DNA of 64,000 nt from Luteitalea sp. TBR-22 (GTDB lineage Bacteria; Acidobacteriota; Vicinamibacteria; Vicinamibacterales; Vicinamibacteraceae), in the NCBI RefSeq assembly GCF_016865485.1, contig NZ_AP024452.1:5292501-5356500 (forward strand). Direction: 5' to 3'. Below, in pieces: positions 57,333 through 63,283 of this stretch. Made by a program: the position numbers and the translations under genes. Positions within the stretch are counted from its first letter, which is position 1. The number at the start of each line of letters is the position of its first letter. The notes beneath the pieces were generated by a model, which saw nothing but the letters and a program-made list of their open reading frames with translations, was not told the DNA's origin and did not search any database.

Positions 57333-58409
57333 GTGCGTCTCGACTCGGCTCGCAGCCTCAAGGCTGAACTCCTCGGCGACATCATCGAACCCATGGTGGT
57401 CGAGGCCAATCGGGTCCATCGGGCCGGCGCCCGGGCGGTCGATGCGCTCGAGCGGCTCTCGGGGCCGGATGCGACCTTCGGCATCCGCGCCCGCGCCCTG
57501 GACGCCGTGCCCGCCGTGCCCCGTTCGATCGCCCTGGGCGTGTCGCGGCACGACCGGCAATTCCGCCTCGCCGTCCGCATCCAGCGGCCGTCGCTGCGCC
57601 ACAGCACGGTCGTCGAACGACTGGTCGCGCGGGCGAAGGGCGAGGTCGACCTCCGGGTCGTCGGGCGCATCGACAAGCGCGCCGTCGCGGCGCGCGCGGC
57701 CGTTCCCTGGCATCGCTCGAAACTCCGCCCGTTGCTGATCGGCGGGTCGATCGGCCACGTCGACGTGACCGCCGGCACGATCGGAGCCTTCGTGCGTCAT
57801 CGCGGCTCGGTCCACGTGCTGTCGAACAACCACGTGCTCGCCAACGAGGACCTCGGGCGCAAGGGCGACCTCATCGTGCAACCCGGCGTCATCGACGGCG
57901 GCCGCGCGCCCCGCGACACGGTCGCCACGCTCGGCAAGTGGATCCGCTTCAGGACCCGTGGGGCCAACGCGGTGGACGCCGCGCTCGCGCGACTGCAACG
58001 CGGCGTGCCGTTCGATCACGCGAGGCTGCGCGGGCTCGTGCGCGGCAAGGACCGCGTGCTCGCCGGGCTCGGCCCCGAACTGGTCGACGAAGGGCACGTC
58101 GTCTACAAGGTCGGCCGCACCACGGGCGCCACGCGCGGCAGGGTCACCGCCTTCGACCTCGACAACGTCGTCGTCGAGTACGAGGTGGGCAACGTGCGCT
58201 TCGACGGGCAGATCGAGATCGAGGGCACCGGGCGCGGCCCGTTCAGCGACGGCGGCGACAGCGGCTCGCTGATCCTGGACGAGGACATGCGGGCGGTGGC
58301 GCTGTTGTTTGCCGGCAGCGACAGCGGCGGGCGCAACGGGCAGGGCCTCACGTTCGCCAACCCCATCCACACCGTGCTCGAGTCGCTGGGCGCGACGCTC
58401 TTGTCGTGA
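57333..58409 (+). CDS. Nal1-like trypsin-fold serine protease
   Basis: The 358-residue protein has a trypsin-like triad: His167 in VLSNNHVLANEDLG, Asp215 in GANAVDAALARL, and Ser310 in FSDGGDSGSLILDED. The HVLSNNHVLA and YKVGRTTGATRGRVT motifs are those of the Nal1-type bacterial family. It lacks a signal peptide, so a cytoplasmic location is likely. The ~130-residue N-terminal part contains a beta-alpha-beta stretch (FRLAVRIQRPS through EVDLRVVGRIDKR) resembling the small downstream protein. The substrate is unknown. It precedes the 82-residue gene by 26 bp. Confidence 0.82.
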   Translation: MRLDSARSLKAELLGDIIEPMVVEANRVHRAGARAVDALERLSGPDATFGIRARALDAVPAVPRSIALGVSRHDRQFRLAVRIQRPSLRHSTVVERLVARAKGEVDLRVVGRIDKRAVAARAAVPWHRSKLRPLLIGGSIGHVDVTAGTIGAFVRHRGSVHVLSNNHVLANEDLGRKGDLIVQPGVIDGGRAPRDTVATLGKWIRFRTRGANAVDAALARLQRGVPFDHARLRGLVRGKDRVLAGLGPELVDEGHVVYKVGRTTGATRGRVTAFDLDNVVVEYEVGNVRFDGQIEIEGTGRGPFSDGGDSGSLILDEDMRAVALLFAGSDSGGRNGQGLTFANPIHTVLESLGATLLS

Positions 58410-60546: not shown

Positions 60547-61173
60547 ATGACCTCCGATACCACCCAGCCCCCCTCCGGCATCGATGCGTTGATCGAGCAG
60601 TGCCTCGCCGGCGACCAGGATGCCTGGGGCCAGATCGTCCGGCAGCACTGGCGCAAGGTGTTCAACGTCGCGTACAAGTTCACCGGCAAGCACGACGAGG
60701 CCGAGGACCTGACGCAGGACATCTTCGTCAAGATCTTCAAGTCGCTGCACACGTTCGACCGGCGGGCGAACTTCCAGACGTGGCTGATCAGCATCAGCCG
60801 CAACCTGTGCATCGACCACTACCGCAGCGTCCGCAAGGAGCGCGAGACGATCTCGCGCGACGTCGACTCGCGCGAGATGGGCACGGCGACGAAGGCCGAG
60901 CCCGGACCGCTGGCCGGCATCGAGCGGGAGGACCAGCGGGCGCTGCTCCGGCTGGCGCTCACGCAGCTGGCGCCGACCCTGCGGTCGGCCGTGCTGCTGC
61001 GCGACATCAAGGAACTGTCGTACCAGGAGATCGCGGTGATGCTCGACCTGCCCGAGGGCACGGTGAAGTCCCGCATCAACCGGGGGCGCACGGAACTTGC
61101 CCGGCAGATCCGCCGTCTGCAGGAATCGGGCCTCTCCACGCCGCGGCGCGCCACCGTCGGCCGCCGCGAGTAG
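60547..61173 (+). CDS. ECF RNA polymerase sigma factor
   Basis: The 208-residue protein has region 2 (IVRQHWRKVFNVAYKFTGKH, EAEDLTQDIFVKIFKSLHTF, WLISISRNLCIDHYRSVRKE) and region 4 (LALTQLAPTLRSAVLLRDIK, SYQEIAVMLDLPEGTVKSRI). There is no zinc-finger anti-sigma gene next to it. Instead, a STAS protein and a small helical protein follow within 24 and 4 bp, suggesting regulation by a different route. GATATCAT (60521-60528) in the short lysA/sigma gap could contain a -10. Confidence 0.92.
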   Translation: MTSDTTQPPSGIDALIEQCLAGDQDAWGQIVRQHWRKVFNVAYKFTGKHDEAEDLTQDIFVKIFKSLHTFDRRANFQTWLISISRNLCIDHYRSVRKERETISRDVDSREMGTATKAEPGPLAGIEREDQRALLRLALTQLAPTLRSAVLLRDIKELSYQEIAVMLDLPEGTVKSRINRGRTELARQIRRLQESGLSTPRRATVGRRE

Positions 61174-61197: not shown

Positions 61198-61539
61198 ATG
61201 AACCTCACGACCGAGCACCATGGCGACGTGGCCGTCGTCCGGGTCCTGGAAGCCCGCATGCTGTACCCGATCCTTCCGGACTTCGCCAGCACCGTGAGCG
61301 ACCTGGTGCAGCAGGGCCAGCGCAAGGTGCTGATCGACCTGACGCCAGTGACCTACCTCGACAGCGCCAGCATCGGCTGCCTCGTGGACCTGTACCGGCA
61401 GGTGACCGGCGCGGGAGGCACGCTCAAGCTCTCCGGCCTCCAGAAGCGCGTCGACACCATGCTGACGATGACCAACACGCAGAAGATCATCGAGGTGCAT
61501 CCCGACGCCGCGAGCGCACTGGCGAGCTTCGGAGGCTAG
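61198..61539 (+). CDS. STAS-domain protein (anti-sigma factor antagonist-like)
   Basis: The 113-residue protein is a single STAS domain: TEHHGDVAVVRVLEARMLYP, VLIDLTPVTYLDSASIGCLV with a candidate phospho-Ser in the DSAS motif, and GTLKLSGLQKRVDTMLTMT. Such proteins usually bind a serine-kinase anti-sigma factor and are switched off by phosphorylation. No such kinase lies in this window. It sits 24 bp after the sigma gene and 4 bp before the next gene. Confidence 0.88.
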   Translation: MNLTTEHHGDVAVVRVLEARMLYPILPDFASTVSDLVQQGQRKVLIDLTPVTYLDSASIGCLVDLYRQVTGAGGTLKLSGLQKRVDTMLTMTNTQKIIEVHPDAASALASFGG

Positions 61540-61543
61540 CGAC

Positions 61544-61816
61544 GTGAATGCCATCAAGACCAGCACTGGCGTCGAGATCCCGCTGGACGGCGACCTGCTC
61601 GCGGTGGTCGAGACCCTGTTCCAGGAAGTGACGGTCCGGCACGAACTGGCGCGGACCTACGAGGACATGATGCGGGAGATCCAGCACCTCGCCGAGCAGT
61701 TGTCGCCCGAGGAACTCCGCGCGTACTTCATCGAGAGCCTCTTCCTGAACACGGTGACCTACGAGAACGAACGTCTCGGCGCCCTCGTGAAGAAGCTGCC
61801 GGAAGACGGGGAGTAG
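61544..61816 (+). CDS. Small helical protein of unknown function
   Basis: The 90-residue acidic protein is almost all helix (LLAVVETLFQEVTVRHELAR, MMREIQHLAEQLSPEELRAY, NTVTYENERLGALVKKLPED) and looks like a short coiled coil. It starts 4 bp after the STAS stop, so the sigma-STAS-helical trio is probably one operon. No family recognised. It could be a third component of the switch. Confidence 0.7.
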   Translation: MNAIKTSTGVEIPLDGDLLAVVETLFQEVTVRHELARTYEDMMREIQHLAEQLSPEELRAYFIESLFLNTVTYENERLGALVKKLPEDGE

Positions 61817-61824
61817 AGAAGAGA

Positions 61825-61918
61825 TTTCAGAATTTCAGAAGTTCAGAATTTCGCCACCACCTCAGCGCCTCGAAGGATGGGGATGGTGATGAAATTCTGA
61901 AATTGTGAAATTCTGCAA
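61825..61918. repeat. AT-rich inverted repeat with 28-bp arms, each built of ~8-bp units
   Basis: The left arm (61825-61852) and right arm (61891-61918) are inverted copies matching at 25 of 28 positions, separated by 38 bp. Within each arm the motif AATTTCAG (or its complement) recurs every 8 bp. The element is far richer in A and T than its surroundings. It occupies the gap between the small helical gene and the radical SAM start, ending 6 bp before the ATG. Confidence 0.8.
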
Positions 61919-61924
61919 TTGCTG

Positions 61925-63283
61925 ATGTCCGAGAACTATCTCGCCACCCGCTATCGCTGCTCCTGGCCGTGGAGCACCGCCGTCCTGCTGTGTGATGGGC
62001 GGGTGGTGTGCGGCTGCGCCGACCCGTACGGCAAGCGGGTGCTCGGTGATGCACGCACCGACAGCCTCAACGCGATCTGGACCGGCCCCACCGCGTCGCG
62101 GCTGCGGCAGGAACTCAACGCCGGTGGCTCGGACTTCTGCGGCGACTGCCCGCTGAAGCTGCCGCTGGCCGAGGACGAGCAGCCGCCGCAGCGCCCGCTC
62201 GACGTCGGTCCGCTCCCCTCGCGCATGTACGTGGAGAGCACGGCGGCGTGCAACGTGTCGTGCCTCGACTCCTGCTGTGCGCCGGAGACCGGCATCACGA
62301 AGACGCGGCAGGCGGGCATGCTCGACGTCGACCTGTTCCTGCGCGTGCTCGGCGAGGTCGGGCCGACCCTCGAGCGCGTCGACTTCTTCAACTACGGCGA
62401 GGCCTTCCTCCACAAGCGCGCCGTGGAGATGTGCGAGATCGTCAAGCGCGACTACCCGCACATCTACCTGTACACGTCCACCAACGGCGGCGCGCTCAAC
62501 GAGGAGTCGGCGCGGCGCCTGGTGCGGTCGGGCATCGACGAGATCACCTTCTCGGTGGACGGCGCGTCGCAGGACGTCTACGCCACCTACCGGCAGCGCG
62601 GGCGCTTCGAGCACGTCATGAAGAACCTCCGTGCCGTGATGGACGAGAAGCGCAGGCTCGGCACCGACGTGCCGTTCGTGAACTGGCGCTACATCCTGTT
62701 CCGGTGGAACGACAACGACGCGGAGATGGCGCGCGCCAGGAAGCTGGCCGCCGAGATCGGCGTCGACCGCCTGTGCTGGGAGATCACCGATCACCCCGAG
62801 CACGCGTACTCGCGCCGCTTCGCGCCCGGCACCGAGGACTGGAAGCGGATCAGGCACGAGGTGTGGGACGACAACCACCTCGGGAGCGCGATTCCCGGCA
62901 CCACGCCGCGTGCCCGCATCGAGGTGCGGGGGCCATCGCGCGCCGAGACGCTGGTGCAGCCGGCCGGCGCGCCGCTGGCGCTCGACCTGCGCGTGCGCAA
63001 CCTGAGCCAGCGCCCGTTCCCGCACACGGCCACCTACGGTCGGCGGCTCGTGCGGGTCGGCGCGCAGCTGCTCGACGAGCAGCGCGAACTTCGGGATCGC
63101 GACTTCGTGCGCGCCTCGTTGCCGGCCACCATCGACGCCGGTGCGTGGCAGGACCTCCGCCTCGAGATCCCGCCCATGCCCCCCGGCCGGTATCACATCA
63201 AGCTGGATCTCGTGAGCGAGGGTATCGACTGGTTCGAGTCGTGCGGCTCGGAGGTCACCCTGCGCGAACTGCGCGTCGAGTAG
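61925..63283 (+). CDS. Radical SAM protein with N-terminal SPASM-like Cys region and C-terminal beta-rich domain
   Basis: The 452-residue protein opens with a region resembling SPASM: WSTAVLLCDGRVVCGCADPYG, VLGDARTDSLNAIW, FCGDCPL (Cys23, 29, 31, 72, 75). The radical SAM domain follows, with STAACNVSCLDSCC; its Cys spacing is C109-x3-C113-x3-C117 (plus Cys118) instead of the usual C-x3-C-x2-C. Later motifs NYGEAFLHKRAVEMC, YTSTNGGALNEESA and EITFSVDGASQDVY are typical. The last ~125 residues (LDLRVRNLSQRPFPHTATYG, GRYHIKLDLVSEGIDWFESC) resemble the glycan-binding domain on Wzt-type ABC proteins and some glycosyltransferases. No ribosome site precedes the ATG. Function unknown. Confidence 0.8.
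   Translation: MSENYLATRYRCSWPWSTAVLLCDGRVVCGCADPYGKRVLGDARTDSLNAIWTGPTASRLRQELNAGGSDFCGDCPLKLPLAEDEQPPQRPLDVGPLPSRMYVESTAACNVSCLDSCCAPETGITKTRQAGMLDVDLFLRVLGEVGPTLERVDFFNYGEAFLHKRAVEMCEIVKRDYPHIYLYTSTNGGALNEESARRLVRSGIDEITFSVDGASQDVYATYRQRGRFEHVMKNLRAVMDEKRRLGTDVPFVNWRYILFRWNDNDAEMARARKLAAEIGVDRLCWEITDHPEHAYSRRFAPGTEDWKRIRHEVWDDNHLGSAIPGTTPRARIEVRGPSRAETLVQPAGAPLALDLRVRNLSQRPFPHTATYGRRLVRVGAQLLDEQRELRDRDFVRASLPATIDAGAWQDLRLEIPPMPPGRYHIKLDLVSEGIDWFESCGSEVTLRELRVE

Follow-up and report, generated by a model that had tools for sequence, protein, structure and literature searches.

The radical SAM enzyme BtrN (2-deoxy-scyllo-inosamine dehydrogenase, PDB 4M7S/4M7T) binds its catalytic cluster via C16, C20 and C23, corresponding to the motif C-x3-C-x2-C (PMC9012708). 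Its auxiliary cluster has four cysteine ligands and a low potential and likely serves as electron acceptor, as summarised in a review (PMC9012708). An auxiliary [4Fe-4S] domain located N-terminally of the core has been reported for the tetraether lipid synthase GDGT-MAS (PMC9433317). This enzyme differs from the protein described here in its ligands (C73, C77, C80 and a histidine) and in its additional rubredoxin and C-terminal cluster domains (PMC9433317). It was the only such case obtained from the open-licence literature, in which we found no paper describing an N-terminal SPASM domain, an N-terminal twitch domain or a C-x3-C-x4-C motif. Among the protein family models, the NCBIfam profile NF033640 (N_Twi_rSAM) also places a twitch domain (profile positions 5-75) before the radical SAM domain (about 106-315).

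The auxiliary clusters of SPASM and twitch enzymes are known from domains following the barrel, while in the radical SAM protein of Luteitalea sp. TBR-22 analysed here the corresponding domain is located at the other end. Its gene lies in a stretch of 64,000 nucleotides (the window) representing positions 5292501-5356500 of a single 6.47-Mb contig.

Domain order and spread of the family

The radical SAM gene (61925-63283, forward strand) encodes 452 amino acids that comprise, in this order, a twitch domain, a radical SAM core and an FW/Ig-like tail. Full-length orthologues sharing 60-86% identity confirmed that the open reading frame (61919/61925-63283) is real and also back the start methionine at 61925 (MSENYLATRY); reading from 61919 would give 454 amino acids. 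In this 454-aa reading Pfam detected SPASM at residues 14-78, followed by Radical_SAM at residues 106-244 (E 3.2e-11). The Radical_SAM score of 44.1 bits, compared to a cut-off of 29.5, assigns the protein to the superfamily. When the segments were searched separately, the N-terminal 94 residues alone matched SPASM (PF13186; residues 12-76, E 2.8e-10, 40.8 bits, cut-off 21.5) and the last 149 residues matched no Pfam family. The AlphaFold2 model of the whole protein, based on 44 sequences (pLDDT 89.3, pTM 0.86), consists of a beta-hairpin with helices (residues 18-65), six strand-helix units (100-312) and a beta-sandwich (330-451).

Orthologues at E<1e-100 were detected in 32 of the 60 nearest genomes, and matches at 1e-30 or better in 25 of 297 genomes across the phylum. 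Scanning the contigs of 84,980 species revealed 174 related stretches, 80 of which were kept and aligned together with the window (81 rows). The kept relatives belong to the Acidobacteriota (Vicinamibacterales), the Aminicenantes and CSSED10-310; a few records are labelled Cyanobacteria, Acidimicrobiia or Chrysiogenales, labels that may represent binning errors. The domain order is identical in 81/81 sequences and hence is not an annotation artefact. This bears out the claim of an earlier note on this DNA that a cysteine-rich segment of the SPASM type precedes the radical SAM domain. The gene is predicted to encode a conserved radical SAM enzyme with the auxiliary-cluster domain ahead of the catalytic domain. 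A match on a Rhodobacteraceae plasmid was rejected as an N-terminal-twitch relative, as from the start of the match Pfam gave only Fer4_12 and no SPASM.

Paralogues with the canonical order are encoded within the Vicinamibacterales (loci L062, L063 and L066; 318-332 aa). In these proteins the radical SAM domain with the motif CNAKCVFC comes first and the SPASM domain second, the latter sharing 42-46% identity with the N-terminus of the twitch-first protein. This relation is as expected of a circular permutation or a domain relocation, to judge from the sequences. A tree of 25 radical SAM core domains required three order changes on the best tree; given its weak support and long branches it appears too weak to argue for a single permutation event and leaves one origin neither shown nor excluded. 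The three paralogue genes adjoin genes for an NAD-epimerase and a glycosyltransferase of family 9 and represent an uncharacterised glycan-linked radical SAM/SPASM family. Furthermore, two divergent radical SAM genes are adjacent in locus L053 (136-4158), one encoding FW-rSAM-SPASM in normal order and the other FW-SPASM-rSAM-FW in permuted order.

Cysteine motifs of the twitch domain and the core

The N-terminal domain (61952-62158, forward strand; residues 10-78) contains Cys12, Cys29, Cys31 and Cys72, which are found in 81/81 rows of the alignment, and Cys75, which is found in 80/81 with one gap. By direct count the spacing is C-x16-C-x42-C-x2-C. As Cys12, Cys29, Cys72 and Cys75 together with the invariant Cys31 suit one cluster rather than a full two-cluster SPASM domain, the domain is better called a twitch domain with a putative single auxiliary [4Fe-4S] cluster. 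The SPASM region proposed by the earlier note was recovered by Pfam, although it suits a single cluster better than two. A SPASM/twitch domain with conserved cysteines is present but does not have its usual C-terminal position, being N-terminal in 81/81.

A search of the family profile against the PDB sequences gave BtrN as the best match (E 3e-17), with profile positions 100-222 aligned to residues 23-148 of BtrN and positions 9-80 to residues 186-260. This crosswise alignment indicates that both domains match in swapped order. Four conserved cysteines and Cys31 might, as far as can be told from sequence, provide for a four-cysteine auxiliary cluster of the BtrN type. The second twitch cysteine of BtrN (G-x4-C) falls on G30, so that Cys29 (G-x3-C) and Cys31 (G-x5-C) flank the ligand position and one putative cluster ligand is uncertain.

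The radical SAM core (62216-62860, forward strand; residues 98-312) is supported by the Pfam Radical_SAM match and by a predicted (beta/alpha)6 fold, for which radical SAM chains ranked first in VIA-align with Z scores up to 16.6 (NifB, 208 residues, rmsd 4.2). The cluster motif CNVSCLDSCC (62249-62278, forward strand) lacks the standard C-x3-C-x2-C spacing. Exceptions to the standard motif occur within the radical SAM superfamily, and its absence therefore does not exclude membership. According to the column counts of the 81 relatives, Cys113 and Cys118 are present in 81/81 and Cys109 in 80/81, whereas Cys117 is found in 62/81 and replaced by V or I in 19/81. Because Cys118 is invariant, the conserved motif is better written C109-x3-C113-x4-C118, with Cys117 as an additional cysteine. 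The cysteines named by the earlier note (109, 113 and 117/118) and their non-standard spacing were as described there, but its C-x3-C-x3-C reading does not represent the conserved form. Of Cys117 and Cys118 only the latter is never lost, a pattern that by itself does not decide which of the two would be the iron ligand. Further residues of the core (N156, Y157, N187, G188, D212) are conserved in 81/81.

More distant relatives with an N-terminal SPASM domain carry C-x3-C-x2-C (L060), C-x3-C-x3-C (L058, L059) or a CNYACTCC form (L061/L036), indicating that the length of the cluster loop has varied in this architecture and that its change is tolerated. In two genomes of one genus we observed a Cys109 to Tyr exchange in L028 (genome G019; L028/L049) and an in-frame TAG in the radical SAM gene of L025 (genome G028), either of which would reflect decay or an assembly error.

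C-terminal tail and gene neighbourhood

The tail (62903-63280, forward strand; residues 327-452) is predicted to form an Ig-like beta-sandwich of the FW/CARDB type and carries a near-invariant E-x3-W-F motif. It was also modelled separately (pLDDT 86). The predicted tail fold resembles ILRUN FW (Z 10.1, 105 aligned residues, rmsd 2.5), CARDB (Z 9.6) and NBR1 FW (Z 8.6), scores that are moderate for a common Ig-like sandwich, and the sequence identity to the FW and CARDB domains is low (12-17%). Two relatives match the Pfam family N_BRCA1_IG (PF16158), L053 with 28.9 bits at a cut-off of 28 and the other below the gathering score, while the Luteitalea tail, searched as the last 149 residues, gave no match of its own. 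The same tail is present in class I methyltransferases of the Vicinamibacterales and is therefore a mobile accessory module rather than a marker of glycan work.

In the Vicinamibacterales the gene typically ends a run consisting of a divergent lysA and genes for an ECF sigma factor (60547-61173; Sigma70_r2/r4 by Pfam), a STAS-domain protein (61198-61539; Pfam STAS) and a 90-aa protein (61544-61816), the last three on the forward strand in the window. It is followed by lpxC and uvrA on the opposite strand. The ECF sigma factor gene, the first of the conserved upstream run, is found upstream in most Vicinamibacterales loci, and the STAS and 90-aa genes are present in 58/80 named loci. These two genes are also kept in 54/60 and 53/60 relatives, respectively, including genomes without the radical SAM gene. 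The 90-aa protein has a conserved alignment, matches no Pfam family above the curated cut-off, lacks a core rich in Cys and resembles a folded helical protein. Nearly always encoded next to STAS, it represents a hitherto undescribed companion of the ECF-STAS genes.

A different run occurs in the Aminicenantes, where genes for RecR, a Roadblock protein and an MglA-like GTPase precede the radical SAM gene and a convergent aminotransferase gene follows; only a few bases separate the Roadblock, MglA and radical SAM genes. The remaining lineages have unrelated neighbours, one locus with a glycosyltransferase gene among them. As the neighbours differ among lineages, the simplest reading is that of a stand-alone enzyme attached incidentally to different regulatory gene runs.

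Two further observations concern the window itself. The gap before the radical SAM start is filled by a 36-nt inverted repeat (61824-61919, 86% complementary) with 8-bp TTTCAGAA/TGAAATTC units. The TTTCAGAA/TGAAATTC unit pair occurs in 42 copies genome-wide (at most one mismatch), compared to 0 for the reversed control, and looks like a dispersed REP-like element. Positions 57333-58409 gave weak matches to Nal1_C and Trypsin_2 and may encode a peptidase-like protein.

Proposed function and comparison with known families

From the domain order, the conserved residues, the predicted fold, the profile kinship with BtrN and the synteny we infer, at a probability of roughly 0.55, a BtrN-type radical SAM enzyme that performs an auxiliary-cluster-assisted oxidation and carries a docking tail. 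The core would hold a [4Fe-4S] cluster through C109, C113 and C118 and generate a 5'-deoxyadenosyl radical by cleaving SAM. An electron of the substrate radical would then pass to the four-cysteine auxiliary cluster in the twitch domain, a role also proposed for the cluster of BtrN, resulting in a two-electron oxidation (a dehydrogenation or a cross-link), while the FW-type Ig domain may dock a macromolecule, either as the substrate or as a partner. Across the lineages examined, no gene for a substrate or product was linked to the enzyme. That this is a widespread, active family with a natural circular permutation and a C-x3-C-x4-C loop which modifies a cytoplasmic protein recognised by the FW domain appears possible but rather unlikely.

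The earlier note had regarded the tail as a glycan-binding domain of the Wzt type and the enzyme as modifying a surface glycan or a glycan-linked peptide. The C-terminal domain of Wzt is indeed an Ig-like beta-sandwich, as is the predicted tail, the canonical-order paralogues adjoin the glycosyltransferase and NAD-epimerase genes mentioned above, lpxC lies downstream in many genomes and one locus has a glycosyltransferase neighbour. However, there was no Wzt_C match to the tail in Pfam at E<=10 and no Wzt chain in a sequence search of the PDB; nor was one among the structure matches listed, which FW and CARDB folds head, although absence from these excludes nothing. Furthermore, lpxC is convergent and hence outside the radical SAM operon, and the conserved neighbours are mostly housekeeping or regulatory genes, those for the ECF sigma factor, STAS and the small helical-looking protein or for RecR, Roadblock and MglA, with no conserved glycan genes among them. 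With neither a Wzt signal nor such neighbours, a glycan role found no support and seems quite improbable. The regulatory runs might instead point to a protein-modifying or regulatory enzyme that acts on a partner of the signalling proteins encoded with it (STAS or the MglA-like GTPase), since the radical SAM gene lies at their 3' end in two lineages. Yet the two modules are unrelated to each other, the ECF-STAS-90aa module also occurs without the enzyme and the other neighbours of the remaining lineages fit a stand-alone enzyme, so that this role, too, is doubtful.

It seems even less probable that the enzyme is a RiPP-like maturase acting on the 90-aa protein. Coordinate comparison placed the gene of the latter a short distance upstream of the radical SAM gene in 31/32 orthologue-bearing genomes, and it accompanies many of the named loci. 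However, it is more widespread than the enzyme (53 of 60 relatives compared to 32), was not found in the Aminicenantes loci and encodes a protein whose folded helical appearance and lack of a Cys-rich core speak against such a substrate; its retention in genomes without the enzyme disfavours it as obligate substrate. Equally improbable is a pseudo radical SAM protein unable to cleave SAM due to a displaced third cysteine. The third cysteine departs from the canonical x2 spacing, one orthologue carries Tyr109 and a sister genome an in-frame stop, but apart from this Cys109, Cys113, Cys118 and the remaining motifs of the core hardly vary from lineage to lineage, and the spacings of the distant relatives suggest a loop tolerating length changes. 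The BtrN-type oxidation is the reading we prefer.

BtrN shares with the family the radical SAM core and, as predicted here, a one-cluster, four-cysteine twitch domain; it differs in the C-terminal position of its twitch domain, in lacking an FW tail and in its C-x3-C-x2-C motif. All NCBIfam matches of the 452-aa protein remain below the curated cut-offs. The best matches of the core were the radical SAM/SPASM maturases TIGR04317 and TIGR04311 (93.8 and 74.2 bits), whose cut-offs of 380 and 400 are far above these scores and whose profiles have the SPASM domain at the C-terminus. Because the relatives match only general models (Radical_SAM, SPASM), the family is easily missed. Positions 5-69 of NF033640 match residues 12-75, in the same twitch-then-rSAM order, whereas the linker is longer in that profile and the score of 36.9 bits falls short of its cut-off of 170. 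The possibility, left open by the earlier note, that a family with this layout has already been described thus applies in part. The twitch-first layout has a precedent in NF033640, and the variant found here, with its C-x3-C-x4-C loop and FW-like tail, stays below that cut-off. If active, it would add a cluster loop with two additional residues to the radical SAM motifs that function, and the twitch-first family and its normal-order paralogues within one bacterial order offer a natural test of fold position against chain order.
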